Virus record (IMG/VR): IMGVR_UViG_3300023180_000390
Span: 1 to 24,188 of that record
Strand: one strand, 5' to 3'
DNA length: 24,188 nucleotides
From: a virus
Below are positions 7,901 to 24,188 of this stretch, piece after piece. Numbering within the stretch: the first letter of the stretch is position 1; each line of letters opens with the position of its first letter. Position numbers and translations under genes: made by a program. The notes under the pieces were generated by a model. The model did no database searches. It saw nothing but the letters and a program-made list of their open reading frames with translations, and had not been told where the DNA came from.

Positions 7901-10900
7901 TGGAATTGGAAATACCACATTCAACATATCTTTAAATGAGATTCCAGAAAGACTTTCATACCAATCTTCAGATTGTGAAGTCATAGAATATGATACTTCT
8001 TCACTCAATGCATCTGGACCAATTAAAAATATTAATATAATATCTTCTGGATTTAACTATAAAGTTCTACCAAGAATTGTAGGTTTAAGCACTGGATCTG
8101 CAGTTAGTGTTGGATCAAACGCGGTATTGAGGGCAAATACAAAGGATATTGGTAAAATTAACGAATATAGAATTATTAATGAAGGATTTGATTATTCTTC
8201 TGATAAGACTTTAAGACCTCAAGCAGAAATTCCAACTTTATTAACATTAACTGGATCCCAAAAAATTGAGAACATTGATGTAGTTGATGGTGGAAAAAAT
8301 TACATTTCTGCTCCATCACTAATTATTATTAACATGTATGACCGCACTTTAGTTGATAGTGGTCTTCTTGTTGCAAATTTCAAAGGAAATACTATTGTTT
8401 CTGTAGATGTTGTCGAAGAACCAAAAGGTCTGGATGATGTTGAACACAGAATATTTACAATTAATAATAGTAATGGTATTCAGGTTGAGAGAATTTTATC
8501 TTACAGTAATGGTATAGTAGAATGTGAACTAAGTACACCACCAATTGATGGATTTATTAATCCACCATTTAAATCTGGGGATAGAATATTTGTAGAAGGA
8601 ATCAAAAAGCAAGATTTTACAGATGCTTTAGGAAATGTAACTTCTCCAGGAACAGGTTTTAATTCCGCAGATAATGGATACAACTTCTTCGAAGTTACCG
8701 AATATACAAATTCAAATCCAGCGATATTAAAATATAATATTGGAGAGTTTACTGAAAATGCAGGAACTGCTGTAACCATTCAAACGACATCATTTAATTC
8801 AATCATAAAAGAACAAAACTATCCAGTTTTCAGAATAACAAGAGTTCCAAGTCTCTTCTTTGATGGAGAACTTTTGCGCGTAAATGATACAGCGACAGAC
8901 TTAGAAGTAAAAACAGTTAAGAAGAACTTTATCAAAGTTACTGGCGACTATAAGATAGAAATTGGTGATCAGATAAAAGGAGTTAACTCTGGCAACTATG
9001 CAATTATTGATAATATCTATAGAAATGAAAATAGATTCACTATAGACTATTCCAATAAAAAAGAATTTGATTGGAAGGATGATACTGGAAAACTAAATCT
9101 TGATCTTCAGGTATTACCAAATAATGACTACTATCAGAATCTCTCTTACACAATTAAGAGTACTATTGAATATGAAGAGATGCGTGATAAAGTCAACCAG
9201 TTAGTTCACCCAACTGGATTGAAAAACTTTGCAGATACTGAAATTCTCTCTAAAGCAGATGTTTCTATCGCATCTTCAATATCACTATTACCAGTTCTTG
9301 ATTTTGTCTCCGAAAGAAGAGTCGATACTATTAATAATTTTGACCTAGCATTGGATTATGATCCAACGCAAGATTCTTCTAGATTCATTATATTTAAAAA
9401 TAAAAAACTAGCTGATTATATTGAATGTAGATCAAACAGAGTTCTACAAATTGACGATATTAGTGGTAGATTTTCTAGTTCAGAATTCAATAAAGAAACA
9501 TTTACGGATACAATTGAATATCCAATTACTGACTTTTATTCTAAATTCCTCGTTCAAGTTATGGATGAGGAAAAGAGAAGCACTCAGGTTAGTGAAGTTG
9601 TAGTTTTAAACGATTATCAGGGTACATTTACTTTAAACAAAATTGATCTATTCACAGATGAAAAAATAGGAGATTTTTCTGGAGATTTTGGATCTGTTGG
9701 AGATCCAATTTTAAGATTCACTCCTATCAATCCAAATGATTTTAACTATAATCTCAAAATTTACAGAGAGTCATTTACTAGTGATCCATTTACAATTGGT
9801 ATTGGATTCACTGAAATTGGTTTTACAAGACTATCTGCAATAACGGAAAATGTAGGTCCATCTTCTGGAAATGGTCTTCTTGGTGTAAGCACAACTGTTT
9901 TCCAAGCACAGTCGGCACTTTATGATACTGTATATGCATTTGCACACGTTGTTGATACCGTTACAAATGAATCAAATTACTTTGAAATAGCAGGTCATTA
10001 TGACGGGCAGGACACTTATCTTTCAGAGTTCTACTTTGATACCAAAAAAACCTCAGTATCTGGAAATTATATTGGAACGTTTGGGTTAAATGTGGATGGT
10101 GGAGTTATTTCACTTTCCTTTGAAAATGAAAATAGTAACAATAACGTAAGAGTTAAAACAAAAGTTGTTGGTATTGGTTCAACTTCTGCTGGAGTTGGAA
10201 CATACAGATATACTGTTGATGGGCAGATTGATGGTACTGAAAGAACTGCAAGACTTGATTCTCAATATTCTATTACCTCTGGCATTTCAACCATTATTAC
10301 TTTTGATAGTATTTTAGATTCTACTTTAAAATCTATCATTAAAGTTTCTGTTGGTTCTACAGTTGCTTTACATAATTTATTAGTTGTTGCCGATCAGACA
10401 AGAACAAATATTCAACATTCACCATTCATATCCGTTGGTTCTCAGACTGGAATTGGAACTTTTGGTTCTGAAATGGTCGGTACTGATGTTGTTGTTAAGT
10501 TCTATCCAGATTCTGATTATTCTTCTGATGACATTACAGTCCAATCTTTCAACCAATTTATTTACACGGATATTGATGAATTTAACGTTCCCGAAGATTT
10601 TACTTATGGCAACGCGGTAGAAAACATAACAAATGCATTCTATGGATCTATTAATGAGTTTGGTAAAGATAAACTCGATTTTGATTTGAATTATAATAGA
10701 ATTCCTATCTTTGAAAAAACATTTAACCCAAATAATTCTAGTGTTTTAGATAGAGCAACTGGAATTTTCTCAATCGATAACCATTTCTTTGAAACTGGTG
10801 AGGAGTTAATTTATACTCCAAACTCAACTTTAATTGGTATTGATGGAGAACCAATGGGTATTGGAGAAACTATCGTTTCTGGTTCAACATTTACTGGAGA

Positions 10901-13900
10901 CTTTATTGTTGGTTTCTCTTCGATTACGGGTATTGCTAATACAACAGGAATTACCACAAATTCATTGATATTTGGTCCATCGGTTCCTTCAAGTACTACG
11001 GAAGTTATTGGAATTTCTACAAATTATACATTCTTCATCGGTCAGGTTATTGGTGGTGGATCCACAGTAATTACTGGGGTAGGAAACACTTCAATTCTCA
11101 CCGTTGGTGCTGGCATATTCTCTGGAGATAATACTGGTTTTGGAACCATCACATCTATTGGAATCAATTCGATTACTTCAACAGAGACGATTCCAGGTGG
11201 ATCGGATATAATTTACTACTCGACAGATGAATCTTATGCTATAGAGTTGGATGGAGTTTCTACTGCATCTACAATGAGGCAATCGTACTCCACAGGAATA
11301 ACGACTGATATCTGCCCAACAACAGTATATGCAATTAGATTATCTAAAGATCAGTTTAAGTTATCTGGAACTGCTGGAGGAAGTGGTATTGGTTTAACTT
11401 TCACTTCTATTGGAAGTGGAAATCGCCATGAACTTGAGATGAAGAAGAAACTTGAAAAAACTCTAATTACAATTGATGGAGTAACACAATATCCTTTAAT
11501 GTATACTCCACTGACCTATACTTTAGAGAATAACAGTGCTACCATTGGTGCAGGTATAACCTTCCTCTCTCTTTCTGGAATTTCTTCAATTAAACCAAAA
11601 GATATTCTCAAGATAGATGATGAATTCTTAAATATCAAAAACGTTGGACTAGGAACAACTAATGTTGGTCCTATTGATGGAACTGGAGATGTACCAGTTA
11701 TTGAGGTTTCTAGAGGATTTGTTGGTTCTTCAGCAACTACACACTCTAATGGAAGTGTTGTTAGAATTTATAAGGGTGCATATAACATAGTTGGAAATAA
11801 AATTCACTTTACCGAGGCACCAGATGGTAAAGGTAATAATAATAGATTAAACTCAAGTAATCTTGCACTACCTAAATCGTCATTCAATGGAAGAGTTTAT
11901 TTACGTAAAGATTATACTGATAATAAAATTTATGATGATATTTCATTAGAGTTCAATGGAATTGGAAGAACCTTTACAGTATATAAAGAGGGTCAAAATA
12001 CAACTGGTTTAGAGGCTGGTAGCAATCTAGTCTTTATTAATGATATATTCCAGACTCCAGATACCCCAAATAATGCTGGTAATAATTACTTCTTTGAAGA
12101 AACAGAGTCAACTGGAATTTCTAGCGTAACATTTACTGGTATTAAGAGACCTAATACGGATGATACTATCATTATTGAATCTGATGTAAATCAAAACCAA
12201 TTACCACGAGGTGGCGTTGTTATATCTATCGCACAGACTGGTGGATTGGGTTATGCTCCACCAATTGGAGCAAAACTCAGAGCAGAAACCACTGGAGGTG
12301 TGATTACAAATATTGTCGGAGTTCCAACTTACGGACAAGCATATCAAATTAGTACATCAGTTTACAATCAAAATACTGGTATACTTGAAGTTACAACATC
12401 ATCACCACATAAATTTACTGGATCTGAAAATGATGTTTACTTAGAAAACTTAGAGTTTTCATGTGATTCGGCACATGCTGGAGTTACTACTACGATTTTC
12501 CCAGATGGAACACTTGGCAACGTATTTCCTGTTGTGGGAGTTGTTTCAGCAACAACATTTAATGTCAACATTGGTGTAAGTACCATAGCACATAGTTATG
12601 TTGGACAGGGAACAGCATATCAATATTACAGCAAACTAACCTTTGGATCTGGATATTATAATAATGTTTCTATTGGAGTTTCAAACGTATACTATCCACA
12701 TAGATTTGTCTCTGCTGGTATTAATTCAATTACAGACGATACAACAGCAACTCACACAGCAACTGATGCGGATTATGATCCAGTAACTGGTATTCTTGTT
12801 CTCACAATAGACAATCATGGTTTAACAACATCTAATACTATTGAATTTGACGATAATTCACTATCCTTTAGGTGCTCTAGTGATAATTATCAAACGGTAA
12901 GAACTTACCCAAGACCTACAGATCCAGTTTCTGGTATTTCAACCACAATTCTATCTACAACAACTAATACAATAACAGTTAATATTGGTGAAACTGGAGG
13001 AACAGGAGCACAAATTGATGTTTCTGTTGGAGCTGGTGGAACACTAATTCCATCAATTGTTGATGGGGGACAAGGATATGGTGATATTGTTTTTGATATC
13101 AATGATCCATCATATGAAAATCTTCCTGTAATAGGTGTTTCCCGTCTAGGACTTGGCAATACAACTCAAACTGGTATTGGATTGTCAATGACTCTTGAAG
13201 TTGGTCCAAGTTATGCAGCAACTGGCATTGGATCAACATACTTCCAAATTCGCTCATATGAAATTACAAAACCAGGATATTCATATAGGGTTGGTGATGT
13301 CTTTAAAGTTGTTGGGTTGGTAACTGATTCCAGATTATCTTCTCCAATTGAAGAACTTCAGTTTACAGTTACTGATGTATTTGAAGATTCATTTGCTTCT
13401 TGGCAATTGGGTGAATTTGATTTTATTGATAGTATTTCTTCACTGCAAGATGGGAACAGAACCAGATTCCCACTTTATAAGAACAGCCAGTTGTTGAGTT
13501 TCCAAAAAAATACCTCTGACGTTGATTCGGCATTAATTGATTTGGATTCGATTCTTTTAATCTATGTGAATGGGGTAATGCAAGAGCCAGTAGTTTCATA
13601 TGAATTTACTGGTGGAACTACATTTAGATTCAAAGAAGCACCAAAATCAAGTGATAAAATTGACATCTTCTTCTATAGAGGAACAAGAGATGAAGACAGT
13701 ATCGAAGTTAATGTTAATGAAACGATAAAACCTGGAGATGACGTTCAGATTTTAAAGAATGATGACATTCCACAAACTGTAGGACAGGATTCAAGGATTG
13801 TTTCTGAGATATTCTCTGCCGATATAATCAGAACAGGTATATATCTTGGTGATGGTATTGATGACACAAACTACAAACCAATTGATTGGTCTAAGCAAAA

Positions 13901-15161
13901 GAGAGATCTTCTATTAAATGACAACGTTCAGTCTAAAGTAAGAGATTCTTTAGAGGGAATGGTGTTCCCAACAGGAAAAGTCATACAAGATTTCTCTTCT
14001 ACAGATCTTGAAATATTCCTGGATAATTCGCAATTCTTCAACTATGAAGAAAATGAATCTAGTATTGGAATTCAAGATTTCTCTTCAATATTAATTCAAG
14101 GTGGTAATGATCCAGTTTCAGCTGCATTTACAGCAAATGTCTCTGCTGGCGGATCAATTTCTTCAGTCACAGTTCTTGATGGTGGATCTGGATATGATCC
14201 AGGATCTGTTATTGATCTAATAATTGCAAATCCAATAGGTGGAATCGGAACTATATTCAAATATGATGTTAAGAGAAGACCAGGAGTTCTTGGAATTGGG
14301 TCTGATGTTATTATCGGTATTGATACTTCATCGATTTCTGTCGGTCAAGCAATTAGATCTATTCCTAATGTTTTAGATACTACAGTTACAGTAACTGGTA
14401 TTTCTAGTGGTTCTGATGGATCTGTATCATTGAGTAAAAATGCATCAAATACCACAGTCCTTACTAGATCTTTTGATTTTGGTAGATATCAAGATCAGTC
14501 AGTTGCAATTGGATCTGCATTTGTTTCCAATTCTGGTATTGTAACTTTGACCTCTATTTCTAATGCTGGAGCTGGTTATACAGTTTCCCATCCACCCGAT
14601 ATAACAGTTTCTTCACCAAATTATGCAAGTGAATTGATTACTGGAATTAGATTTGTTGAAGGATTTAGTGGAATTATCACTGGAATAACAACAAATACTG
14701 GAACTGGAGGAAATCCACTATCCTTAACTTTCCATGTTTTATATGATTCTGTATCAGATATTAATTCATTAATCGAAAATTATCCAATTTATGTTTTTGA
14801 CACTCATGTTGGAAATGGAGTAACATCTATCGATAGTGGTGATTCTACATTAGTTGGTATTGGAACTACATTTGCAGACAATATCTACAAGATTCACTCT
14901 ATCACTAGAGATAATCTAACTGGCATTATAACTAGCAATATTCTTTCAACTACAGATGTTACTGGTATTCATACAATGCCTGGTAGTGTATGTGGAAGAT
15001 TCTCTTGGGGAAGACTCTCTGGTTTTGAGAGAACGTCTTCATCTATTGGTGTTGCCGTTTCTGGATACACAGTTAATCCTGGTCTTACTACCTTCCCAAC
15101 ACTACAGAGACGTGGTTATGGACTTAGAGATACTGGTGCCCTAAGAAAAGACCTTGGGTAA
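1956..15161 (+). CDS. 7: Giant gp7-like baseplate wedge protein with large modular insertions
   Basis: A single uninterrupted 4401-residue frame, about four times the length of T4 gp7 (1032). It carries pieces of the T4 gp7 C-terminal wedge domain: SKGTDESFRILFNVLYG at 203-219 (T4 STKGIEASYKFLFKVLYN), LVGQ at 257-260 with the following beta region to about 315 (T4 LVGQTIYTATG), then, some 2,000 residues later, W2373-DDTGKLN, DYYQNLSY at 2391-2398 and LVHPTG at 2416-2421 (T4 FVHPVG). The N-terminal half of T4 gp7 is not seen. Between the blocks lie repeated beta-rich modules and a YHYH-like domain (1229-1345). After them come about 1,960 more residues with further modules. No signal peptide or transmembrane segment is evident. 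Role inferred: wedge core plus peripheral baseplate surface. Starts 9 bases after gp6 and shares a late operon with gp8. Confidence 0.85.
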   Translation: MITTGFDARVKVQQIIENQLPEFLLSESPKSVDFLKQYYVSQEYQGGPIDIAENLDQYLNLNNLSPEVITGTTTLTSSVSESDDVIYVESTKGFPKQYGLFKIDNEIITYTGITNNSFTGCIRGFSGVTNYRNETNPEELVFSTSDAASHSNESNVENLSALFLKEFYKKLKYLLAPGFEDVDFVSELDVNNFIKSARSFYLSKGTDESFRILFNVLYGVTPKVINLEDFLLKSSDAEFIRREILVTERISGDPLRLVGQMIRNIDDSATGPVSEVEIITRNKKTFYKIQLFSGYDEKSLIEGTFKITPSSIVSDNVSIGSSVITVDSTIGFPESGNLVSGSNTITYTDKSINQFFGCQGVDTSINPSDNIRSDKIIYGYENGDPSKRVELRVTGVLSDIESPEKFNLLLEGDNISVKNLGDKVENNNENNKQFSFNSWIYNVRSRYEVNSFNNNQLTLFEQPDISSLKVGDTVDVLDRNSENIVVADAVVTAINSKLVEINKNITGVVSNRRLSIRRKYAYATSSNTPLRVPNIISNVQNTYNEDDKFIYVASNSLPDYQIKKKLSTANISITASSNLDNIFQNYNGLTDLYSVLSFNDDVPFVTGDAIIYHGDQDAFPELVLGNTYYVEVLEESGRKNKIRLYNARSFISSQNYVEFGKYEVVSNHNFTILQHYNKTLVPKKSLSKFPLDPNIKTETNVPTEVGVVGKLINGVDIINYKSNDRIYYGPIDSLKIYNSGDDYDVINPPSIVISGPVGFGTTAEAQAVVSGSVKSVIVDPQNFNINRVLSVTVTGGNGNGAKLQHVLSKQFREIEFNGTQVGLAATGGVDISNETITFLERHNLQDGEKIVYNPAGNQPLGIGSFKFSNTDQGRYLVNGATYYPQVINTRAIHLYETEEDYLAGINTVGFTTINTGGTHRFRLFDAKDVISEIRVIDPGSGYENRRLRVKTSGISTEYNKIVFNNHGFKDGDLVNYSYETSEIVGLTSSKQYRVIKLNDSDFQLADAGSVGAATTDFERRKFVKFESTGSGYQEFSYPPVQIIIDAEFTGSSIGTITATPQVRGQIVDAYLYDGGTNYGSNILNFHKKPSLSIRNGVGAELKPIIKSGSIVAVEVQNGGKYYNAAPDLVVNGNGSGCKLRAVVIDGTIKDVIIINRGVNYEDKNTSISVIPPGKNAVIEPNVRYLSVNNLGKFSDEILSEYEDNLSYGVVGYSTEREGNSFSDPNPDTGHSKVIGWAYDGNPIYGPYGYSDPEDNNSSIVALKTGYNESISNVYNRPSTSVFPLGFFSDDYKYVNNGDLDEHNGRFAKTPEYPEGVYAYYVGVATAAPTGKLVPKFPYFIGNTFRSTPAENIVDQSFDFNNSSLVRNTFPYRTNQKYSGSDFIVESNEFFNQITTVESVSEGGIETVTVLNPGQDYKIGNLVTFENEGTNGGGASAEVSKLEGYNISKIETTYDDFESSVVTWQDKQTLRVYTPSFHSFSSGDNISISGVSTFLNGLVDSHKIGISSERSSLAEDIPANVGVVTDIYVSSIGLNVGSGTTIGIGTELFSVLNRFDSDNILRVRRGNATISHSSGDIVDYFTDSFTISLSSEYFESTKNKKTYFNPKQSVGVGINTGTETSTSFYIGNTLKTVSIPVQSIYIPNHSFRNNQKLLLSIPQSANALTASDTSSGSTFDLPNSGSSQYVYVINKSKDFIGLTTQVGLTSTSGGLFFTANGSDNYEYSLDTTYPELTCTARRIKAKVSISTDHGLEDRDKINLTVKPKQTVGVGSSDLIRIKYNASNKKLLVNTVGFSSSKVDITTDKIYIGDHNLSSGQKVFYDSSDLVASGLTTGSYFVYKVDSNNIKLAETYNDVFANPPVIVSIGNSGGSGQELSLINPQLKITNNNNISINLPDSSLDGYKFKLYYDQDLNSEFVSTGSTSSFNLQGSSSNSITINHDDSLPTKLYYSFEKDGILIEPDIDVKNYSEILYVDSFYNGEYEVFGIGNTTFNISLNEIPERLSYQSSDCEVIEYDTSSLNASGPIKNINIISSGFNYKVLPRIVGLSTGSAVSVGSNAVLRANTKDIGKINEYRIINEGFDYSSDKTLRPQAEIPTLLTLTGSQKIENIDVVDGGKNYISAPSLIIINMYDRTLVDSGLLVANFKGNTIVSVDVVEEPKGLDDVEHRIFTINNSNGIQVERILSYSNGIVECELSTPPIDGFINPPFKSGDRIFVEGIKKQDFTDALGNVTSPGTGFNSADNGYNFFEVTEYTNSNPAILKYNIGEFTENAGTAVTIQTTSFNSIIKEQNYPVFRITRVPSLFFDGELLRVNDTATDLEVKTVKKNFIKVTGDYKIEIGDQIKGVNSGNYAIIDNIYRNENRFTIDYSNKKEFDWKDDTGKLNLDLQVLPNNDYYQNLSYTIKSTIEYEEMRDKVNQLVHPTGLKNFADTEILSKADVSIASSISLLPVLDFVSERRVDTINNFDLALDYDPTQDSSRFIIFKNKKLADYIECRSNRVLQIDDISGRFSSSEFNKETFTDTIEYPITDFYSKFLVQVMDEEKRSTQVSEVVVLNDYQGTFTLNKIDLFTDEKIGDFSGDFGSVGDPILRFTPINPNDFNYNLKIYRESFTSDPFTIGIGFTEIGFTRLSAITENVGPSSGNGLLGVSTTVFQAQSALYDTVYAFAHVVDTVTNESNYFEIAGHYDGQDTYLSEFYFDTKKTSVSGNYIGTFGLNVDGGVISLSFENENSNNNVRVKTKVVGIGSTSAGVGTYRYTVDGQIDGTERTARLDSQYSITSGISTIITFDSILDSTLKSIIKVSVGSTVALHNLLVVADQTRTNIQHSPFISVGSQTGIGTFGSEMVGTDVVVKFYPDSDYSSDDITVQSFNQFIYTDIDEFNVPEDFTYGNAVENITNAFYGSINEFGKDKLDFDLNYNRIPIFEKTFNPNNSSVLDRATGIFSIDNHFFETGEELIYTPNSTLIGIDGEPMGIGETIVSGSTFTGDFIVGFSSITGIANTTGITTNSLIFGPSVPSSTTEVIGISTNYTFFIGQVIGGGSTVITGVGNTSILTVGAGIFSGDNTGFGTITSIGINSITSTETIPGGSDIIYYSTDESYAIELDGVSTASTMRQSYSTGITTDICPTTVYAIRLSKDQFKLSGTAGGSGIGLTFTSIGSGNRHELEMKKKLEKTLITIDGVTQYPLMYTPLTYTLENNSATIGAGITFLSLSGISSIKPKDILKIDDEFLNIKNVGLGTTNVGPIDGTGDVPVIEVSRGFVGSSATTHSNGSVVRIYKGAYNIVGNKIHFTEAPDGKGNNNRLNSSNLALPKSSFNGRVYLRKDYTDNKIYDDISLEFNGIGRTFTVYKEGQNTTGLEAGSNLVFINDIFQTPDTPNNAGNNYFFEETESTGISSVTFTGIKRPNTDDTIIIESDVNQNQLPRGGVVISIAQTGGLGYAPPIGAKLRAETTGGVITNIVGVPTYGQAYQISTSVYNQNTGILEVTTSSPHKFTGSENDVYLENLEFSCDSAHAGVTTTIFPDGTLGNVFPVVGVVSATTFNVNIGVSTIAHSYVGQGTAYQYYSKLTFGSGYYNNVSIGVSNVYYPHRFVSAGINSITDDTTATHTATDADYDPVTGILVLTIDNHGLTTSNTIEFDDNSLSFRCSSDNYQTVRTYPRPTDPVSGISTTILSTTTNTITVNIGETGGTGAQIDVSVGAGGTLIPSIVDGGQGYGDIVFDINDPSYENLPVIGVSRLGLGNTTQTGIGLSMTLEVGPSYAATGIGSTYFQIRSYEITKPGYSYRVGDVFKVVGLVTDSRLSSPIEELQFTVTDVFEDSFASWQLGEFDFIDSISSLQDGNRTRFPLYKNSQLLSFQKNTSDVDSALIDLDSILLIYVNGVMQEPVVSYEFTGGTTFRFKEAPKSSDKIDIFFYRGTRDEDSIEVNVNETIKPGDDVQILKNDDIPQTVGQDSRIVSEIFSADIIRTGIYLGDGIDDTNYKPIDWSKQKRDLLLNDNVQSKVRDSLEGMVFPTGKVIQDFSSTDLEIFLDNSQFFNYEENESSIGIQDFSSILIQGGNDPVSAAFTANVSAGGSISSVTVLDGGSGYDPGSVIDLIIANPIGGIGTIFKYDVKRRPGVLGIGSDVIIGIDTSSISVGQAIRSIPNVLDTTVTVTGISSGSDGSVSLSKNASNTTVLTRSFDFGRYQDQSVAIGSAFVSNSGIVTLTSISNAGAGYTVSHPPDITVSSPNYASELITGIRFVEGFSGIITGITTNTGTGGNPLSLTFHVLYDSVSDINSLIENYPIYVFDTHVGNGVTSIDSGDSTLVGIGTTFADNIYKIHSITRDNLTGIITSNILSTTDVTGIHTMPGSVCGRFSWGRLSGFERTSSSIGVAVSGYTVNPGLTTFPTLQRRGYGLRDTGALRKDLG
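2517..2900 (+). other. gp7 conserved wedge block 1 (residues ~188-315)
   Basis: This part of the giant protein aligns by eye with the T4 gp7 C-terminal region: NNFIKSARSFYLSKGTDES, then FRILFNVLYG, then L257-V-G-Q, and a beta segment KKTFYKIQLFSGYDEKSLIEG corresponding to T4's GKLQWTVTIHNLLGRLIAG. In T4 the same protein continues to the HPVG block within about 150 residues of the KVLYN motif; here it is interrupted. Confidence 0.75.
4170..5435 (+). repeat. Cluster of six 'GxGY' protein repeat modules in the gp7-like protein
   Basis: Six copies of a pattern roughly [VI]-x-[VI]-x-(D/N)-x-G-x-x-Y, followed by a Pro/Gly-rich turn and another strand. The core residues are SGDDY (739-743), PGSGY (938-942), TGSGY (1028-1032), GGTNY (1074-1078), GGKYY (1118-1122) and RGVNY (1156-1160). 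The last three are spaced about 40 residues apart, suggesting a regular beta-solenoid or tandem small beta-domain. More copies occur at 1412-1416, 2031-2035, 2112-2116, 3429-3433, 3704-3708, 4076-4080 and 4204-4208 of the same protein. Confidence 0.75.
5640..5993 (+). other. YHYH-like domain within the gp7-like protein
   Basis: Residues about 1229-1346 match the YHYH family pattern in order: GWAYDGNPIYGP (1235-1246), a PLGFFSDDYKY segment, DLDEHNGRF (1298-1306), TPEYPEGVYAYY ending at 1320, and FPYFIGNTF (1336-1344). The namesake Tyr-His-Tyr-His is YAYY here (1317-1320), so both histidines are lost. The domain function is not established. It sits between two GxGY repeat clusters as an insert in the wedge protein, consistent with a surface or binding module. 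Confidence 0.8.
9069..9290 (+). other. gp7 conserved wedge block 2 (residues ~2372-2445)
   Basis: WKDDTGKLN, DYYQNLSYTIKS (2391-2402), EEMRDKVNQLVHPTGLKNF and ADTEI form a continuous conserved block. It corresponds to the T4 gp7 stretch SYYVMKIKSNLPSSRWK followed by FVHPVG. Variants of 'YYQ-SY-I-S ... LVHP-G' are widespread in tail and baseplate proteins of marine phages. This is where the gp7 wedge core resumes after the long insertion. Confidence 0.75.
12375..12575 (+). repeat. Cys/FPDG module, copy 1 of a diverged internal duplication
   Basis: Residues 3474-3540 of the giant protein: TGILEVTTSSPHKF, then LEFSC (Cys3503), TTIFPDG, and FNVNIG at the end. It is one residue shorter than copy 2 and keeps the same order of landmarks. 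At DNA level the copies have diverged, so the duplication is old or reached by modular exchange. Confidence 0.65.
12786..12989 (+). repeat. Cys/YPRPTDP module, copy 2 of a diverged internal duplication
   Basis: Residues 3611-3678: TGILVLTIDNHGL, LSFRCSSDNYQTV (Cys3640), TYPRPTDP, and ITVNIG at the end. A 'CxxD...YPR..DP...VNVG' module is, from memory, common in large tail proteins of marine T4-like phages. Copy 1 lies 137 residues upstream in the same protein. Confidence 0.65.
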
Positions 15162-15192: not shown

Positions 15193-16749
15193 ATGGCGGC
15201 AATTGTAACAGATCAGTTTAGAATATTAAATGCAGGGAACTTTGTAGATTCTGTTAGTGACCCTAATAATTCTTATTATGTATTTTTAAGTCTACCCAAT
15301 CCAAATGCTGTTGGATTTGGAAGGTCTACAACTTGGGATTCTAATACTCCAAATCCTGTTGATAATCTAAACTACTTAAATCATGTAAAAGATACAATGA
15401 TTTTTGGTAAGAAAATTACCGCTAATGATGTTCGTAGATTGGTGAGAAGAGTTGATTGGAGGCAGGGCACTGTTTATGAAATGTATCGCCATGATTACAG
15501 TGTAAGTAATACTTCTCCACAAACAAATTCGACTAGATTATATGATTCAAATTACTATGTAATTAATAGCGACTACAGAGTTTATATTTGTATTGACAAT
15601 GGTGCATCTTCTGCAAATCCAGCAGGAAACTTTTCACAAGATGAACCAACATTTATTGATTTAGAGCCAACAAGAGCTGGTGAAAGTGGTGATGGATACG
15701 TTTGGAAATATCTATTTACAGTTTCTCCAAGTGATATTATTAAATTTGATTCTATTGAATATATTCCCGTTCCCAACAATTGGGATACAACCACCGATGC
15801 ACAGATACAGGCGGTTAGAGAAAATGGGGATTCTTTAGTAAATGAAAACCAAATTAAAAAAGTTTATATTCAAAATCAGGGTGCTGGATATAACACAACC
15901 GATACTGAGTTAGATATTTTGGGAGATGGTGAAGGTGGAAGAGTTGTTGTTGATGTAACAGGTGGTAAGATTACTGATGTTACCGTTTCATCTGGTGGAA
16001 AAAATTATTCTTATGGAAGAGTTGACCTCTCAACTATTAATAGTGGAGCAACAGAATTTGCACATTTGATCCCCATTATTCCTCCATCCAGAGGGCATGG
16101 ATATAATCTTTATGAAGAACTTGGAACTGATAGAGTTTTAATTTATTCCCGATTTGATGACTCGACTAAAGATTTTCCTTTAGATACCAGATTCGCACAG
16201 ATTGGCATCATCAAAAACCCAACAAGAATTGGATCCGCATCTTCTATTTTCTCCGAAAATCAATTTTCAAATCTGAATGGATTAAAGTTAACTTCGGTTT
16301 CAAATCCATCCGATGCTGTTCCTGGCACAAGAATTTATCAAACAGTAACAGGTGTTGGTACAGCAACTGGATACATTGCTTCATATGATACTGAAACAAG
16401 TGTTCTAAAGTATTTTTCCGATAGATCTCTTTACTTTAATCAGAGTTCTTATGATCAAAAAGATTCCAGAAATCTTATTAATGAGGCAACAAAAGTTGAT
16501 TTTAGTATAAGTGGAGGAACGATTACTTCAACTAATAACTTTAGTGGAGCAATTGATTCTACCTTTACTGGTATAACAACAACAGTTACATCAACTAAGA
16601 GAGTCAATCTTGCAACAGAATTCAATAACGGCATATCTCTTCCTGAAATAAATAAAGGATCAGGGGAAATTATTTACGTTGATAATAGACCCAGAGTTTC
16701 TAGAAACCCTCGTCAAAAAGAAGATATTAAAATCATACTGGAATTCTAA
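15193..16749 (+). CDS. 8: Baseplate wedge protein gp8
   Basis: A 518-residue homologue of T4 gp8 (334 residues), the dimeric wedge protein that binds gp7, gp10 and gp6. Clear family landmarks: IVTDQFRILNAGNF near the N-terminus (T4 IVTSKFRTEKMLNF), RRVDW (T4 RRDW), GDGYVWKYLF at 166-175 (T4 GDGYVWEYLF), EYIPVPNNW at 189-197, a QIGIIKNPT segment (T4 QISIITNP), and the C-terminal GEIIYVDNRP at 491-500 before KEDIKIILEF (T4 GEMIYMENRP ... EEINILFTF). The extra length is mostly two inserts: about 100 residues after position 197 containing two GxGY modules, and about 150 residues before the C-terminal signature. It sits behind a late promoter, and the next gene starts two bases after its stop. The ATG at 15193 lacks a good ribosome binding site but matches the conserved N-terminus. 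Confidence 0.95.
   Translation: MAAIVTDQFRILNAGNFVDSVSDPNNSYYVFLSLPNPNAVGFGRSTTWDSNTPNPVDNLNYLNHVKDTMIFGKKITANDVRRLVRRVDWRQGTVYEMYRHDYSVSNTSPQTNSTRLYDSNYYVINSDYRVYICIDNGASSANPAGNFSQDEPTFIDLEPTRAGESGDGYVWKYLFTVSPSDIIKFDSIEYIPVPNNWDTTTDAQIQAVRENGDSLVNENQIKKVYIQNQGAGYNTTDTELDILGDGEGGRVVVDVTGGKITDVTVSSGGKNYSYGRVDLSTINSGATEFAHLIPIIPPSRGHGYNLYEELGTDRVLIYSRFDDSTKDFPLDTRFAQIGIIKNPTRIGSASSIFSENQFSNLNGLKLTSVSNPSDAVPGTRIYQTVTGVGTATGYIASYDTETSVLKYFSDRSLYFNQSSYDQKDSRNLINEATKVDFSISGGTITSTNNFSGAIDSTFTGITTTVTSTKRVNLATEFNNGISLPEINKGSGEIIYVDNRPRVSRNPRQKEDIKIILEF
15871..16008 (+). repeat. Two GxGY modules inserted in gp8
   Basis: Residues 227-272 of gp8 contain QNQGAGY (227-233) and ITDVTVSSGGKNY (260-272), the same repeat seen many times in the upstream giant protein. 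T4 gp8 lacks this segment between its EYI-VP motif and its NP motif. The two cores are 40 residues apart. Confidence 0.75.
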
Positions 16750-16751
16750 AG

Positions 16752-19700
16752 ATGTCACAAAAAACCAATTTAAACGTATCACCTTATTATGACGATTTTG
16801 ACCCAAATAAAAATTTTTATAGGGTTCTCTTCAAACCAGGTTTTCCAGTTCAATCAAGAGAATTAACTACTTTACAGTCAATTCTACAAAATCAAATAGA
16901 AACTTTTGGGAGCCACATCTTTAAAGATGGTTCTGTAGTAATTCCAGGAAATATTTCATATAATTCAGAGTATTATGCGGTTAAAATAAACCCAACACAT
17001 GTGGGATTGAGTGTTGGTTTATATTTAAATGAGTTAGTTGGTAAAAAAATAAAAGGTCAGACTTCTGGTCTAGTTGCAATAGTACAAAAAGTATTATTAA
17101 ATACTGAATCCGAAACTGAAGATTATACTTTATACGTCAAATATATTTCTTCAGACTCTTCTTTCCAAATTTCCCAGTTCAGAGATAGTGAGACTCTGAT
17201 TCTTCAAGAAAACTTAGTATATGGAAACACCACCATTGCTTCTGGAGATACATTTGCAACCCTAATAAATCAGGATGCTACCTCTACGGCGTCTGCAGTT
17301 TCCATTTCCAATGGAGTTTATTTCATTAGAGGTCACTTTGTAAGCGTTAGTGATGATACTCTAATCCTAGACCAATATACAAATACACCATCATATAGGG
17401 TTGGTCTATATGTTTCAGAATCTTTAGTAGATGCAAAAGAAGATAATACTTTATATGATAATGCAAGAGGATTTTCTAATTATGCAGCACCAGGTGCAGA
17501 TAGATTAAAAATATCTGCATCTTTAACTAAAAAGAGATTAGATGATTTAGACGATAAAAATTTTATTGAAGTTTTAAGAATTTCAAATGGTGTTGTTAAA
17601 AAAATTCAAGATTCAAACACATATTCATTAATTAAAGAGTATATTGCGGAAAGAACTTATGAAGAATCTGGAAATTATTCTGTAGATCCTTTTGAAGTTG
17701 ATGTTGAAGATTCTTTAAATGATGGTTTGAATTCTAGTGGAGTATTTTTCTCAAATCAATTAACAGACCAAGGAAACACTCCATCAGAAAATCTTTTAGC
17801 ACTTAAGGTTTCTCCTGGTAAGGCATATGTTAGAGGATTCGATGTAGAGAAGAGTGTTTCGACAATATTAGATATAGAAAAACCAAGAGATACCATAGAA
17901 GTTAGCAATTCTGCAGTCCCATTTGAGATGGGGAGTTTGCTAAAAGTTAATAGAGTTAGTGGAACCCCAGTTGTTGGTATAGATAACAATCACGTCATTT
18001 ATCTAAACAATCAAAGAAAAAATTCATCAATTGTTGGGACAGGAGAAACTATCGGTAAGGCAAGAGTTTACTCTTTCTCTTCACCAAATGAATATGAAAA
18101 TGATGCAGACAATTGGGACTTGTATCTCTATGATATTCAAACATACACTAAAATCACATTAAATCAGGCATTAACTTCTGGAGAGTGCCCTGAAACATCC
18201 TTTATCAAAGGAATGAGTAGTGGTGCTTCTGGATATGTTGTAGGAACACCTTCAGGAAATGATATTAACGTTCAACAAACTTCTGGCACTTTTACTGTAG
18301 GTGAGCAGTTATTAATTAATGGAAGCACTTCATACTCAAGAACTGTTTCTGCAGTAAAGGTTTTTGGAACACAAGATATTAAATCTGTCTTCCAAGATGC
18401 TGCAGAGGTTGGGTTATCGACTTCATTTGTCGCAGACACTTTCTTACAAACTAAAATTGCAAAGAACTTTACAAATACAGATTCTTTAGAAATTAGTGCA
18501 ACAGGTGTAGCAACTTGCGCTGGAAAGAATTTTGTAGGAATCAAGAGTGATACTATCATTAAGTATCAACTTTCTGGAAATACTTTAGAAACTTTTAATA
18601 GAGTCGAATCTGTTTCTAATGATGGTCTAACGATGACACTTGTTGCAGTTCCTACTGTATCTGGTGTTTGCAATGGTGCTTTACCAACATCAACAGTAAC
18701 AACAACTTTCTCATTGGGAGTCCCAAGTATTCAGAATGAAGAAAATTCATTCTTATATGCGAAAATCAATTCTAAAAACGTTTCTGATGTAAATCTTTCA
18801 TCTTCGGATCTAACCGTAAGAAGACAGGTTACAGGAAAATCAACATCATCTGCAGGTACACTTGCGATAAATCTATCAGATGTTGGCATCACTAGTGCTT
18901 ATTTCCAACCATACAATAATGAGAGGTATTCGATTTTTTATGATGATGGATCTGTAGATCAATTATCAAGTGATAAAGTATCTCTAAGTAGCAATTCAAC
19001 CGTTGTTACCTTTACTGGTCTCACCCCAAATGAGTCAAACGTTGTTGTTAATGCAACTGTTAAGAAAAATTCAATTACAAACAAACAAAAATTATACATT
19101 AGAAGTAATAGAGTAGACGTTACACAAACTGTTTCTGGAGTTTCAACTGCTATCAGTGGTTTAACATCTACCACAAATTATGGTCTAAGAGTTGAAGATG
19201 AGGAAATCTCTTTAAACGTTCCAGATGCAGTTAAAGTTCTTGCAGTATATGAATCTGTAAATAACGGACAAGTTGTATTAGATAAACTAACATTCACATC
19301 AGGTCTAGGATTAGATACTGAATCGATTCTTGGCGAAAAGATAGTTGGATCTACAAGTGGAGCAATTGCCCAGATAGTAACCAGAGTATCTTCAACCGAA
19401 ATTGAATTTGTTTATTTGAACTCTAATACATTTGTTGCAAATGAGACAGTAAAATTTGAAGAGTCTGGAATTTCTGGTGCAGTAACTACAGTTTTAAAAG
19501 GAACTTATACTAATAAAACATCAGACTATGTTCTAGATAAAGGACAAAAAGAACAATATTATGATTACTCCAGAATTGTTAGAAAAACTGGTGCCTCGGT
19601 TCCATCTAAGAGACTGGTTATTTTCTTTGATTATTATGAAGTTCCAACTAATGATGCTGGAGATCTTTACACAGTCAAGAGTTATGGAGAACAGAGATAT

Positions 19701-22700
19701 AAGAATGATATTCCTGTTTTGAAATCTGGTTATAGAGCTTCTGACGTATTGGATTTCAGACCTAGAGTTGCAGATTTTAATAGCACAACAACATCTCCAT
19801 TTGCATTCTCAAGTAGAAATTTTGCTTCTGCAGGTTCAAATCCAACGTTGGTTGTTTCTCCAAATGAAACTTCCAATGTAACTTATTCATATTATCTCCC
19901 AAGAATAGATAAAATTTCTCTCAACAAAAATGGAAACATAGTTATTACAAAAGGTGTTTCTGCAGATAGTCCAAAAGAACCAACGACCATTGAAGAGTCA
20001 ATGGATCTTGCTAGAATAGAATATCCTGCATATTTGTATGATGTCAATGATGTAAAAGTATATCTCTTCGATAATAGAAGATATACAATGAGAGATATTG
20101 GAAAATTAGAAGATAGAATTTCTAATGTTGAAAAACTTGCATCACTGACTCTTCTAGAACTCAATACAAAAACGTTACAAATACAAGATGCTGATGGTTT
20201 AAGTAGATTCAAGTCTGGATTTTTTGTAGACAACTTTGATGGTACTGATTTTATTAATATAGACAATCCTGATGCTAAAATTTGCATCGATACAAATAAT
20301 GATGACAATGAAATGAGATCTGATGTTTCATCATATTCTCTCAAATCTCAAGTGTCACCATCTGCATCTTTGAATGCAAATACAGAAGATTTCTCATCAA
20401 ATTTTGCACTGCAAGATTCTAATGTTAAAAAGACTGGAGATCTGGTAACTTTAAATTATAGTGAAGTTGCATGGACTAACCTATCTCAAGGATTTGCGAC
20501 AAAAGAACAGGAAATTAATCCTTTTGGAGTTGCAAATTATAATGGATTTGTAAAACTTACCCCAGCATCAGATACTTGGGTTAGAACACTTAATAGTGAA
20601 AATGGCATTGTTAGAACTCAAAGTAATTGGGAAAATACTTATATTGGAAACTTAAATCCAAGTTCTTCTCCAAACGGGAAATTTAGATCAAGAAATGTTG
20701 AATTTAGATCTAGTGGTTTAAAACCAGCAACAAATTATTATTCGTTCTTTGGAGGAAGTTCAAATATTGATATTATTCCAAAACTATTGAAAATTACAAT
20801 GGTTAGTGGAGTCTTTGAATCTGGAGAAACTGTCTATGGATATATCAATGGAAGAAAAGTTGCAGCATTTAGAGTTGCTAACTCCAATCATAAATCAGGA
20901 AAGTATAACCTACCATCAACCACATTCTCAGAGAATCCATACTCACCATCTACAACTATAAATTCATATTCTTCATCATCAACTGTTTTAAATATTGATA
21001 CTTATTCATTAGCAGATAATGCTGATGGAAGATTTTATGGATATGCTCCATCTGGTATGAGACTAGTTGGTAATACTAGCTCGGCACAAGCAACAGTTCA
21101 AGCACAAACTCTTACAACCGATTCTGTTGGTGACCTGATTGGATGCTTCTTTATCAGAAACCCACTTCAGAATCCAGCACCACCAGTTTCTTTGAAAGTT
21201 GGTTCAAAATCGTTTAAACTTTCATCAAGTTCAACAAATTCATCTGCAACTAATGTTTCATTTACTGAAACAACATTCTACGGAAGTGGAATTGTCGATT
21301 CCTCAACTTATACCGAAAGTTTAATCGTTAGAAAATCTCCCCCAGCACTTCCATTAAATGCTTTAAGAAGAGATCCTCTAGCACAGACATTTAGAACAGA
21401 CAATGAAGGTGGATTCTTAACTGCCGTTGACTTGTATTTTAGTGGAAAAGATTCTACAGAAAAATTATTTGTTGAAATTAGAGAAACTGACATTGGAGGA
21501 ACTCCAAAGGATAAATTAATTCAAGACTTTGCAAGAATTGAAGTTCTACCATCAGATATTACGGTATCTAGCGATGGTCAAACAGCAACAAAACTAAATT
21601 TCCCATCCCCAATTTACTTGCAACCAAATAAGCAATATGCTCTTGCGGTTTCATGTCCTTCTTCTGATGATTACAAAGTTTGGATTGCAGAATCAAATAA
21701 AGCAACAGTTACCACTCAATCATATCCAAATGCCGAGCAGGTAATTTACTCCAACCAATATATTGGTGGTAATCTATTCAAACCACAAAATGGTTCGATC
21801 TGGAATTCAAGTTTGCTAGAAGATCTCAAGTTTAAGTTCTATAAGGCAAACTTTACCTCTACTAGTGGAACAGTATTCTTCCACAATCCAACCTTATCTA
21901 TTGGAAGTACACATTCAGAAGTTGATGCCAATCTGCCAATCTTAATTAATAATCCAATTAAGACTCTACCAAGAAAACTCAATGTTGGTATAGTTACATC
22001 TTTTGGACTCAATACATTATTCCAAAATGGTTTAAAGGTTGCAGAAGGAGACACTTACGGATACATTGAGTCTGTTGGAGGTAATATTGGCGTTGTTACT
22101 AGCACAAAAGTTGGTGCTGGATATTCCAATGGCACATATTCAGGTGTACCTCTTTATAGTATTACTGGAAATGGAAGTGGAGCAACAGCGAATCTAACAA
22201 TTGTTAGCAATCAGTTGGCATCCATTTCGATTGCAAATACTGGTACTGGATACAGAACTGGCGATTTGCTTGGTATCACCACAAGTGCTATGACAAAGGG
22301 AAGTGGTGCTACGGTTACGGTACAATCAGTACCAAATATTGATAAACTATACTTAACTAACGTTTCTGGAGAAGAATTTGGTTCTAACCAAACTTTGTCT
22401 TACTATGAGGGAGATACTCAGATTTCTCTAGCAGGAACAGCAACACGAGGTTCATCGACTATTCCAAGTGATCTTTACAGTGGTAATGTATTTGAAGTTA
22501 TTCACTATAATCATGGTATGCACTCAAACTCTAATATTGTCAATATTAATGGAGTAGCACCAAACACTTCTGGCGAACCTCTAACTGCAAGTATCATATC
22601 TTCTAATACAACAATATCTGTTGCCAATACATCAAACTTTACAACTTTTGAGGGTGTAAATGTTTCTGGATCCAATCCAGGTTATATTATTGTAAATGAA

Positions 22701-23813
22701 GAAATTATTTCATACACTTCTGTTTCATCAAATGCATTAAACATTGGTGAAAGAGGTATTGATGAATCGGTCATTAGAAATCATGCTGTTGGAGATCTAA
22801 TTTACAAATATGAACTCAATGGAGTTTCTCTAACAAGAATTAACAATTCACATACTATGCCTTCAAATGGAACTTTGAGTTCTGCAAGAGGAATCGATAG
22901 TTATCATTTACAATTTGATAGATCAGACAAATCTTCCGGTGACTCTCAACTATCATTTACTGATGCTAGTATTCTTGGTGGATCGAATTGTAGAGCAACT
23001 CAGAATATTCAGTTCAATGAGATTATTCCACAATTCAATGTAATTTCCCCAGAAAATACAACAGTTTCTTCTACATTGAGAACTATTTCTGGAACTAGTG
23101 CTGGTGGATCTGAAACTTCATTTATCGATCAAGGTTATGAAAATGTGACTTTGAATCAAGTAAATCAATTGAATACTCCAAGAATTATATGTTCTAGAGT
23201 AAATGAATCAAATTATCTTTCTTCTCTACCTAGAAGCAAGTCCTTGACTTTTGCAGTAAGGATGCAAACCAATAACATTAATGTTTCTCCTGTTATTGAT
23301 TTGACGGAAGCTGCAACATTCATCTTAAATCGAAATAGACTGAATCGTCCAATTTTAGACTATGCAAAGGATCCAAGATCAAATCAATTATCAGACGATC
23401 CTCACGCATCTGTTTATATTTCAAATAGAATAAATCTTCTCAAACCAGCATCCTCTCTGAAAGTTATTCTCACCGCATATAGAAATGCATCCAGTGATTT
23501 TAGAGTTCTTTATCAACTTTTCAGAGCAGATTCGAGTGAAATTAGTCAAACCTATGAATTATTCCCTGGATATTCAAACCTAACCGATACTGATGGAGAT
23601 GGAATTGGCGATACTGTTATAGATGTGAATCTAAATGATGGATCCTCAGATGTCTTTGTAAATGCAAGCAATGATGATCAATTCCTAGAATATCAGTATA
23701 CTGCCGATGAACTTGAACAGTTTACTGGATTTGCAATTAAGATTGTTATGAATGGAACTAATGAGGCATATGCTCCTAGGTTCCGTGATTTGAGAGCAAT
23801 CGCACTAGCATAA
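16752..23813 (+). CDS. Giant DUF4815-type tail/baseplate structural protein
   Basis: A 2353-residue virion structural protein. The N-terminus (YYDDFDPNKNFYRVLFKPG at 12-30, QSRELTTLQ at 34-42, FGSHIFKDGSVVIPG at 52-66) is the DUF4815 signature of marine T4-like phage tail proteins. Later landmarks: GxTSGA-like modules at 102-106, 487-492 and 866-871; a VLDFRPRV block near residue 1000; MRDIGKLEDRI (1113-1123), then GLSRFKSGFFVDNF (1149-1162); DPLAQTF with GGFLTAVDLYF (1541-1563), a fibre-like beta domain; NGSIW (1680-1684); two GxGY modules (1788-1834); one HG-module (His1921); a calcium-loop-like DTDGDGIGD (2279-2287); and a conserved-looking tail ending RFRDLRAIALA. It begins two bases after gp8, where T4 has gp9-gp12, so a peripheral baseplate or fibre role is likely; equivalence to any one T4 protein is not established. 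No signal peptide or membrane segment. Confidence 0.85.
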   Translation: MSQKTNLNVSPYYDDFDPNKNFYRVLFKPGFPVQSRELTTLQSILQNQIETFGSHIFKDGSVVIPGNISYNSEYYAVKINPTHVGLSVGLYLNELVGKKIKGQTSGLVAIVQKVLLNTESETEDYTLYVKYISSDSSFQISQFRDSETLILQENLVYGNTTIASGDTFATLINQDATSTASAVSISNGVYFIRGHFVSVSDDTLILDQYTNTPSYRVGLYVSESLVDAKEDNTLYDNARGFSNYAAPGADRLKISASLTKKRLDDLDDKNFIEVLRISNGVVKKIQDSNTYSLIKEYIAERTYEESGNYSVDPFEVDVEDSLNDGLNSSGVFFSNQLTDQGNTPSENLLALKVSPGKAYVRGFDVEKSVSTILDIEKPRDTIEVSNSAVPFEMGSLLKVNRVSGTPVVGIDNNHVIYLNNQRKNSSIVGTGETIGKARVYSFSSPNEYENDADNWDLYLYDIQTYTKITLNQALTSGECPETSFIKGMSSGASGYVVGTPSGNDINVQQTSGTFTVGEQLLINGSTSYSRTVSAVKVFGTQDIKSVFQDAAEVGLSTSFVADTFLQTKIAKNFTNTDSLEISATGVATCAGKNFVGIKSDTIIKYQLSGNTLETFNRVESVSNDGLTMTLVAVPTVSGVCNGALPTSTVTTTFSLGVPSIQNEENSFLYAKINSKNVSDVNLSSSDLTVRRQVTGKSTSSAGTLAINLSDVGITSAYFQPYNNERYSIFYDDGSVDQLSSDKVSLSSNSTVVTFTGLTPNESNVVVNATVKKNSITNKQKLYIRSNRVDVTQTVSGVSTAISGLTSTTNYGLRVEDEEISLNVPDAVKVLAVYESVNNGQVVLDKLTFTSGLGLDTESILGEKIVGSTSGAIAQIVTRVSSTEIEFVYLNSNTFVANETVKFEESGISGAVTTVLKGTYTNKTSDYVLDKGQKEQYYDYSRIVRKTGASVPSKRLVIFFDYYEVPTNDAGDLYTVKSYGEQRYKNDIPVLKSGYRASDVLDFRPRVADFNSTTTSPFAFSSRNFASAGSNPTLVVSPNETSNVTYSYYLPRIDKISLNKNGNIVITKGVSADSPKEPTTIEESMDLARIEYPAYLYDVNDVKVYLFDNRRYTMRDIGKLEDRISNVEKLASLTLLELNTKTLQIQDADGLSRFKSGFFVDNFDGTDFINIDNPDAKICIDTNNDDNEMRSDVSSYSLKSQVSPSASLNANTEDFSSNFALQDSNVKKTGDLVTLNYSEVAWTNLSQGFATKEQEINPFGVANYNGFVKLTPASDTWVRTLNSENGIVRTQSNWENTYIGNLNPSSSPNGKFRSRNVEFRSSGLKPATNYYSFFGGSSNIDIIPKLLKITMVSGVFESGETVYGYINGRKVAAFRVANSNHKSGKYNLPSTTFSENPYSPSTTINSYSSSSTVLNIDTYSLADNADGRFYGYAPSGMRLVGNTSSAQATVQAQTLTTDSVGDLIGCFFIRNPLQNPAPPVSLKVGSKSFKLSSSSTNSSATNVSFTETTFYGSGIVDSSTYTESLIVRKSPPALPLNALRRDPLAQTFRTDNEGGFLTAVDLYFSGKDSTEKLFVEIRETDIGGTPKDKLIQDFARIEVLPSDITVSSDGQTATKLNFPSPIYLQPNKQYALAVSCPSSDDYKVWIAESNKATVTTQSYPNAEQVIYSNQYIGGNLFKPQNGSIWNSSLLEDLKFKFYKANFTSTSGTVFFHNPTLSIGSTHSEVDANLPILINNPIKTLPRKLNVGIVTSFGLNTLFQNGLKVAEGDTYGYIESVGGNIGVVTSTKVGAGYSNGTYSGVPLYSITGNGSGATANLTIVSNQLASISIANTGTGYRTGDLLGITTSAMTKGSGATVTVQSVPNIDKLYLTNVSGEEFGSNQTLSYYEGDTQISLAGTATRGSSTIPSDLYSGNVFEVIHYNHGMHSNSNIVNINGVAPNTSGEPLTASIISSNTTISVANTSNFTTFEGVNVSGSNPGYIIVNEEIISYTSVSSNALNIGERGIDESVIRNHAVGDLIYKYELNGVSLTRINNSHTMPSNGTLSSARGIDSYHLQFDRSDKSSGDSQLSFTDASILGGSNCRATQNIQFNEIIPQFNVISPENTTVSSTLRTISGTSAGGSETSFIDQGYENVTLNQVNQLNTPRIICSRVNESNYLSSLPRSKSLTFAVRMQTNNINVSPVIDLTEAATFILNRNRLNRPILDYAKDPRSNQLSDDPHASVYISNRINLLKPASSLKVILTAYRNASSDFRVLYQLFRADSSEISQTYELFPGYSNLTDTDGDGIGDTVIDVNLNDGSSDVFVNASNDDQFLEYQYTADELEQFTGFAIKIVMNGTNEAYAPRFRDLRAIALA
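22110..22253 (+). repeat. Two GxGY modules in the DUF4815-type protein
   Basis: VGAGY (1787-1791) and TGTGY (1830-1834), spaced 43 residues apart. Each follows a short hydrophobic strand and is followed by a Gly-rich turn (ITGNGSGATANL, then TKGSGATVTV). This is the same module and nearly the same spacing as in the gp7-like protein and gp8. Confidence 0.75.
23586..23612 (+). other. Calcium-loop-like motif DTDGDGIGD in the DUF4815-type protein
   Basis: Residues 2279-2287 fit the DxDxDGxxD calcium-binding loop found in EF-hand, dockerin and thrombospondin type 3 repeats. It is a single copy near the C-terminus, followed by VIDVNLNDGSSD, which is also rich in acidic residues. Metal binding is inferred from the motif alone. 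Confidence 0.5.
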
Positions 23814-24016
23814 TGATTCCAATTGAAGGACATAATAATCTCTTTAGAGATGAATTGTCAGGTGCTATAGTTAATTCTGATACTATTGAATATAATCAAT
23901 ATATTAGAATGAAAAAAGAACGTCAGAGGCAAAAGGATGAAATTGCTGAATTGAAATCTGACGTTCAGCAAATCAAAAATCTACTTATGGAGTTAATTAA
24001 TGAAAATCGATCCTAG
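23813..24016 (+). CDS. Small conserved-looking protein with C-terminal coiled coil
   Basis: A 67-residue protein. Its ATG overlaps the last base of the preceding stop codon (TAATG), which implies coupled translation; there is no strong ribosome binding site. The N-terminal half (IEGHNNLFRDELSGAIVN, residues 4-21, with an acidic/aromatic run to Tyr30) resembles, from memory, a small protein often found among T4-like cyanophage structural genes, but I cannot name a function. The C-terminal half is a highly charged helix with a regular heptad series Ile44, Leu47, Val51, Ile54, Leu58, Leu61, consistent with a short dimeric or trimeric coiled coil. Being in the late structural cluster suggests a virion component or assembly factor; this is inference. 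Confidence 0.75.
   Translation: MIPIEGHNNLFRDELSGAIVNSDTIEYNQYIRMKKERQRQKDEIAELKSDVQQIKNLLMELINENRS
23989..23992 (+). promoter_or_regulatory. Ribosome binding site GGAG for the last gene
   Basis: GGAG lies inside the preceding coding sequence, seven bases before the ATG at 24000. It supports independent initiation at that ATG despite the 17-base overlap. Confidence 0.6.
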
Positions 24017-24182
24017 TGAAATAGAGTTAGAAAATCTAACTAAAAGTTTTGAATATCATAAACTTTCATCGGAGGTTGATAAATGTAATGATATTGATTT
24101 GCTAAAAAATATTGCAAAAGCATATATTAAACTTTATTTTAAACAACAAGAAGTAGTTACTGCTATTGGACTTGGTTCCTAG
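24000..24182 (+). CDS. Small helical hypothetical protein
   Basis: A complete 60-residue protein, out of frame with and overlapping the previous gene by 17 bases, with a good GGAG ribosome binding site. The sequence is predicted helical by eye: FEYHKLSSEVDKCNDIDLLKNIAK, then AYIKLYFKQQEVVTAIGLG. A single Cys29 is followed by an acidic run. The 'E-D-C-D ... L-NIAK...KLYFKQQE' pattern resembles, from memory, small uncharacterised proteins of T4-like cyanophages. No enzymatic motif, signal peptide or membrane segment is visible. The two small proteins could act together, since they are translationally linked, but nothing in the sequence shows a partner. Confidence 0.7.
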   Translation: MKIDPSEIELENLTKSFEYHKLSSEVDKCNDIDLLKNIAKAYIKLYFKQQEVVTAIGLGS

Positions 24183-24188
24183 AAAATT

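Follow-up and report, generated by a model that had tools for sequence, protein, structure and literature searches.

Which protein forms the baseplate periphery of a T4-like virus whose gp8 gene is not followed by recognizable counterparts of T4 genes 9 to 12? This question is raised by a 24,188-bp virus contig that was analysed in its entirety (hereafter, the window; GC content 33.5%). A sequence-only reading of this DNA had noted a single 2,353-residue open reading frame behind gp8, followed by two very small genes, and had proposed that the encoded giant protein, together with the enlarged gp7, makes up the outer baseplate in place of gp9-gp12, possibly with the receptor-binding role built in.

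Gene order behind gp8

The genes of the window described here are all located on the plus strand. A gp6 homologue, a baseplate wedge protein of 620 aa (84..1946; Pfam Gp6-like_1st, 3.8e-18, and Gp6_C-III, 1.3e-6; phrog_219; hhalign probability to T4 gp6 of 99.9%), is followed by a 4,401-aa baseplate wedge/arm protein with a YHYH domain in the gp7 slot (1956..15161; phrog_2885, baseplate wedge subunit, E=0; Pfam YHYH, 7.7e-26) and by a 518-aa gp8 homologue, also a wedge protein (15193..16749; Pfam Phage-Gp8, 1.4e-12; T4 gp8 structure 1n7z, 2.2e-5; hhalign, 97.2%). The gene for the 2,353-aa giant has an ATG start three bases past the end of gp8 and occupies positions 16752..23813, exactly as originally read. 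The two very small genes behind it are real as well: they encode, in overlapping frames, a coiled-coil virion protein of 67 aa in which an RDxxSGAI motif is conserved (23813..24016; phrog_473, virion structural protein, 2.8e-20), which is the positional counterpart of A511 gp107, and a 60-aa conserved protein (24000..24182; phrog_27081, 2e-28), the last gene of the contig, which ends six bases before position 24188 and is found in the same place in most relatives. As originally noted, the window contains no gp9-gp12 homologue.

The comparison with relatives was based on the best 80 loci in the viral contig collection, with gp8 relatives at 58-94% identity. In all 73 related loci that extend beyond gp8, the next gene encodes a DUF4815 giant, and 44 full-length copies of 2,217-2,543 aa, the window included, were aligned; misassembly or chance is therefore excluded as the source of this arrangement. 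The same slot is occupied by this gene in the isolates P-SSM2, S-SRM01, S-T4, S-CAM7, ACG-2014f, Sf-CH5, S-RIM2, S-RIM50 and P-HM1, where it is annotated under diverse names, namely VrlC/VriC, T4-GC 109, 'virion structural protein' and even 'gp9'. The best-matching isolate phages show 43-47% full-length identity to the giant, and the DUF4815 domain was found in 14 of 15 records, T4 being devoid of it. VrlC/T4-GC 109 of cyanomyoviruses and pelagimyophages (PSSM2_113 of P-SSM2, S-SRM01) is the same gene in the same slot and differs from the giant of the window, which comes from an uncultured virus, by sequence divergence only. Two loci (L053 and L060) encode DUF4815 proteins that are ~190 aa longer (2,539-2,543 aa); the additional residues are located downstream of residue 1495. 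In S-SKS1 (NC_020851), the DUF4815 gene is split into unannotated frames of 286 and 2,169 aa, with intact copies in other relatives.

Family and domain architecture of the giant protein

DUF4815 (PF16075) is the sole significant Pfam family in the giant (219 bits against a cut-off of 30; 1.2e-64), which belongs to phrog_358 (E=0). The single good match among solved structures is chain 9euf_0 and its kin (phmmer, 7.9e-39), that is, the tripod protein of Staphylococcus phage 812, with the similarity extending over four colinear stretches (residues 6-85, 181-393, 1042-1281 and 1539-1710 of the giant against 4-82, 72-255, 397-609 and 790-951 of the chain, respectively). In profile comparisons, the giant family matches both the tripod protein of phage 812 and Listeria phage A511 gp106 with a probability of 99.9%. 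Judging from these similarities, the giant is a baseplate protein of the DUF4815/VrlC tripod/pyramid family, homologous to both the phage 812 tripod and A511 gp106.

The gene neighborhoods agree with this assignment. According to reviews and record annotation, from which our statements on the phage 812 and A511 baseplates are taken, the phage 812 record (KJ206563.2) includes gp119, a 1,152-aa protein named tripod protein, in the order wedge, arm scaffold, arm segment, tripod, small ORF and RBP1, with two receptor-binding proteins in all. The gene order in A511 is the same and ends in gp106, gp107 and gp108, so that gp106 (1,151 aa; profile match of 99.9% for the core and 99.2% for the N-terminal part) comes before a small protein of 73 aa and gp108, a separate receptor-binding protein. 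In the window and its relatives, the giant holds the slot of the tripod family, directly after the gp8/arm segment gene and before a small protein. The position and movement of A511 gp106 are known from cryo-EM and, for the cyanophage proteins, are predicted by homology. The VrlC/VriC protein of Ackermannviridae (Salmonella phage aagejoakim, 1,612 aa), although shorter, matches the giant over nearly its full length (100%, E 1e-120); these phages likewise lack the gp9-gp12 periphery, and both this loss and the link of VriC to A511 and phage 812 have been published (PMC11721090), but receptor recognition in Ackermannviridae is performed by a branched tailspike complex.

The giant contains the domains of the tripod in the same order: the N-terminal part, the core with the first beta-sandwich and the C-terminal beta-sandwich. 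The N-terminal part (residues 1-390; 16752..17921) matches tripod residues 4-82 and 72-255 in phmmer and aligns with residues 3-254 in hhalign (giant residues 5-392; 99.4%, E 5e-22). The core (residues 1046-1716; 19887..21899) aligns with residues 397-951 (hhalign, 99.9%, E 3e-36) and contains the first carbohydrate-binding-module-like beta-sandwich (residues 1539-1710; 21366..21881; phmmer to tripod 790-951; profile search, 2.9e-34), the predicted fold of which superimposes on 9euj_G with a Z score of 16.1 and an rmsd of 3.2 over 149 residues. The C-terminal beta-sandwich (residues 2195-2353; 23334..23810) is the equivalent of the tripod/VrlC C-terminal domain on the evidence of fold alignment and of the match of residues 1463-1612 of the Ackermannviridae VrlC to giant residues 2165-2354 (94.7%). 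Two structure models of the giant were built from 35-sequence alignments. The one that covers residues 1495-2353 (pLDDT 79.7) aligns, over model residues 26..859, with residues 679..1151 of 9euf_0 (Z 15.3, rmsd 4.4 over 347 residues). This alignment begins at the first sandwich and reaches the extreme C-terminus, so that the last 160 residues correspond to the final domain of the tripod itself. In fold comparison, tripod chains score Z 15-16 against the C-terminal third of the giant, clearly higher than unrelated chains. Both carbohydrate-binding-module (CBM)-like folds of the tripod homologues have equivalents in the giant, which is a complete tripod protein with two enlarged regions.

Both regions are predicted to be all-beta. 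The tripod of phage 812, a phage with a Gram-positive host, has 1,152 aa compared to 2,353 aa in the giant and lacks the ~500 and ~470 additional residues of these two expansions, respectively. Expansion 1 (residues 391-1045; 17922..19886; AlphaFold model, pLDDT 89.8, pTM 0.87) comprises ~650 residues compared to ~140 at that site in the tripod. It has no PDB match at E<=0.001 in Foldseek; the best structural alignments reach Z 6.9, within the noise range, and residues ~779-964 align weakly with tripod residues 240-405 (Z 6.6). Expansion 2 (residues 1717-2194; 21900..23333; AlphaFold model) comprises ~480 residues, with very little at that site in the tripod, and includes a small beta domain (~1939-2030) that matches 8jov_1 (Z 10.1, rmsd 1.7, 78 residues) and belongs to a type widespread among phage tail proteins. 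The two expansions together exceed 1,000 residues, neither is clearly related in its entirety to a solved structure, and both could perform functions other than the tripod role. No T4 gp9-gp12 chain is among the fold-search matches listed for the two models; this absence alone carries no weight against a relationship.

gp9-gp12 and the baseplate periphery

T4 gp9-gp12 share with the giant the relative position between gp8 and gp13 but show no sequence similarity to it by Pfam, PHROGs or hhalign. No gp9/10, GP11 or gp12 Pfam domain was detected in the giant at E<=1, nor were the middle, collar and receptor-binding domains of gp12 found by Pfam or hhalign; in hhalign, the giant family profile matches T4 gp9, gp10, gp11, gp12 and wac with probabilities of only 0.1-0.7%, compared to 99.9% for the tripod and A511 gp106. 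These values argue against the original suggestion of a stand-in for, or a fusion of, gp9-gp12. Residues 1530-1700, which had been singled out for comparison with gp10-gp12, largely coincide with the stretch 1539-1710 that matches tripod residues 790-951 instead, the family profile staying below 1% against gp10-gp12. The giant is also unlike RBP1 and RBP2 of phage 812 and A511 gp108 in profile comparison.

Homologues of gp9-gp12 elsewhere in the genome were looked for in the relatives. The GP11 domain was identified in T4 only, among 22 records that included T4 as the positive control, and full-length gp10, likewise, in T4 only among the records examined. The T4_gp9_10_N domain is missing in all 7 complete P-SSM2/S-T4-like relatives; T4, S-RIM2 and S-RIM50 are positive. 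Likeness to gp12 in the relatives is limited to collar-type modules, located elsewhere, in ~1,960-aa fibres and some short ORFs. The proposed outer baseplate without parts of the T4 gp10-gp12 type is supported, and gp11 and gp9/10_N are both absent from the seven complete relatives. S-RIM2 and S-RIM50, members of another clade, retain a gp9/10_N protein between gp7 and gp8. In S-RIM50 (L088, 8551-14434) and S-RIM2 (L089, 56-6439), there are two extra genes between gp7 and gp8, for the gp9/10_N protein and for a 1,547-1,713-aa protein, the S-RIM50 copy of which contains YHYH and matches the gp7 and gp8 PHROGs. The S-RIM50 protein annotated as 'gp9' (YP_009302179) does not speak against the original observation: this entry is the DUF4815 protein itself, and the true gp9/10_N protein is encoded nearby (YP_009302176). 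In the literature, wac, g10, g11, g12, g34, g35 and g37 have been listed as absent from cyanomyoviruses, with g9 among the shared genes (2010 review; PMC2984593), and gp7, gp10 and gp12 have been assigned to the non-cyanophage core (Sullivan 2010; PMC3037559).

Taken together, these observations make it probable that the giant, a tripod/pyramid-family protein lengthened by two all-beta expansions, is part of the outer baseplate and represents a different solution to the gp9-gp12 periphery rather than a fusion. The directly supported part comprises the homology, the colinear domain order and the slot in the series gp6, gp7, gp8, tripod and small coiled-coil protein, with a fibre next in the relatives. 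The outer baseplate of this cyanophage-like virus would then be of the tripod type, an already known, non-T4 type, with the giant as an enlarged relative. In the literature searched, with most subscription journals outside it, no explicit tripod assignment with a domain map and the two expansions was found. The T4 map is the wrong guide beyond gp8. For the baseplate part of abundant marine phages from which the T4 genes were already described as absent in 2010, 9euf and related entries offer a structural template.

A further function could be added to the tripod role without excluding it: in the P-SSM2/S-T4-like clade, the protein might also be a hub or socket for fibre docking, with the expansions (residues 391-1045 and 1717-2194) doing the connector work of gp9 and gp10/gp11 and holding the long and short fibres. 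Both expansions are large and conserved, and gp9/10_N is absent from the examined members of this clade while being present in S-RIM2 and S-RIM50. However, giants of similar length occur in S-RIM2 and S-RIM50, which keep the gp9/10_N protein, and we regard such a hub as possible but rather doubtful.

Host contact, fibres and the gp7 slot

In the closest relatives (L007, L010, L012, L008 and L015), the giant is followed by proteins of ~67, ~60 and ~75 aa and then by one of 540 to >750 aa, so that a separate fibre-like gene of 540-760 aa starts 0.54-0.69 kb past the giant. In L007, L008 and L015, the contig or locus stops before this long protein is complete; in L010 and L012, it belongs to the fibre-like family phrog_15769 and is followed by an ~81-aa protein and gp13. 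In some other relatives, the proteins in the fibre slot carry an N-terminal Mtd_N domain, and in others this place is taken by a gene for L-shaped-fibre assembly, in some cases accompanied by a fibre. Complete relatives possess separate fibre clusters, for example, elsewhere in the genome of P-SSM2. The receptor-binding gene of the virus analysed here is probably located just past the window end, and since the closest relatives encode a separate fibre that starts within 0.7 kb behind the giant, primary receptor binding need not be a function of the giant itself.

These fibres weaken the original suggestion that receptor binding is built into the giant, and they bear on the broader possibility that it is a functional replacement or fusion of gp9-gp12 with the primary receptor-binding function included. 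Such a protein would fit the slot and the missing gp10-gp12 of the relatives, and the two CBM-like folds could touch host glycans; yet, apart from the separate fibre genes downstream and elsewhere and the dissimilarity to gp9-gp12 in Pfam and hhalign, the giant is conserved end to end. Among six near relatives, mean identity stays at 51-92% throughout when the protein is divided into full 50-residue blocks, no hypervariable tip is seen, and because conservation is so even, primary receptor binding by the giant is disfavoured. We consider this replacement unlikely. By analogy, a secondary role in surface contact is possible, given that the Bacillus-phage homologues carry two C-terminal CBM folds (PMC11406892) with equivalents in the giant.

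As an enlarged tripod-family protein, the giant would assemble, probably as trimers, on arms built from gp8 and the giant protein of the gp7 slot, resulting in a double-layered baseplate. In A511, trimers of gp106 are the pyramids of such a baseplate and turn to the cell after the separate receptor-binding protein gp108 has bound (review; PMC9863714). Similarly, separate fibres would recognize the host first, after which the giant would turn towards the cell and its carbohydrate-binding-like tips would press on the cell surface, helping to trigger sheath contraction; the tripod protein would thus take the place of the T4 gp9-gp12 periphery. Trimerization, a double layer and reorientation are extrapolated here from phages that infect Gram-positive bacteria, and neither the literature searched nor the PDB matches included a virion structure of a marine T4-like cyanomyovirus; the double layer predicted from tripod homology is directly testable. 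The 67-aa protein aligns with A511 gp107 over 18 residues (hhalign, 64%, E 6e-5). Its RDxxSGAI motif is weakly common to A511 gp107 (YRDPHSGAL) and a 52-aa ORF of phage 812 (VRDPYSQA), both of which are encoded in the corresponding place behind the tripod gene, and the protein is possibly a conserved tripod partner or chaperone across phage families.

The evidence for homology of the entire arm consists of gene order and weak PHROG matches, in which the phage 812 wedge and arm-segment proteins hit the cyanophage gp6 and gp8 PHROGs (9.6e-6 and 3.2e-5, respectively); when profiles were compared, gp8 did not match the arm segment of phage 812, nor did the N-terminus of gp7 match the arm scaffold. 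In a 2020 paper, VrlC was among the five proteins shared by every genome in the comparison, was linked to a predicted two-layered baseplate and, in pelagimyophages and cyanomyophages, was said to replace T4 gp7 (PMC7029224); this published inference is very unlikely to apply here because a different giant already fills the gp7 slot between gp6 and gp8 in the window, P-SSM2, S-SRM01 and P-HM1, and precedes gp8 in S-T4, the one in the window shares a short element with T4 gp7, and VrlC comes after gp8, as the tripod comes after the arm segment in phage 812. The shared element is the only similarity to T4 gp7 and consists of 31 residues (194-224 against 728-758; 39%, E 3e-4). A regular-expression search for one beta module shared by the giants found nothing; many G-x-G-Y motifs are present in the gp7-slot giant and also occur in gp8 and the DUF4815 giant. 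In P-HM1 (L091, 25313-32590), a second gene annotated as gp7, encoding ~2,425 aa, is located downstream of the DUF4815 gene.
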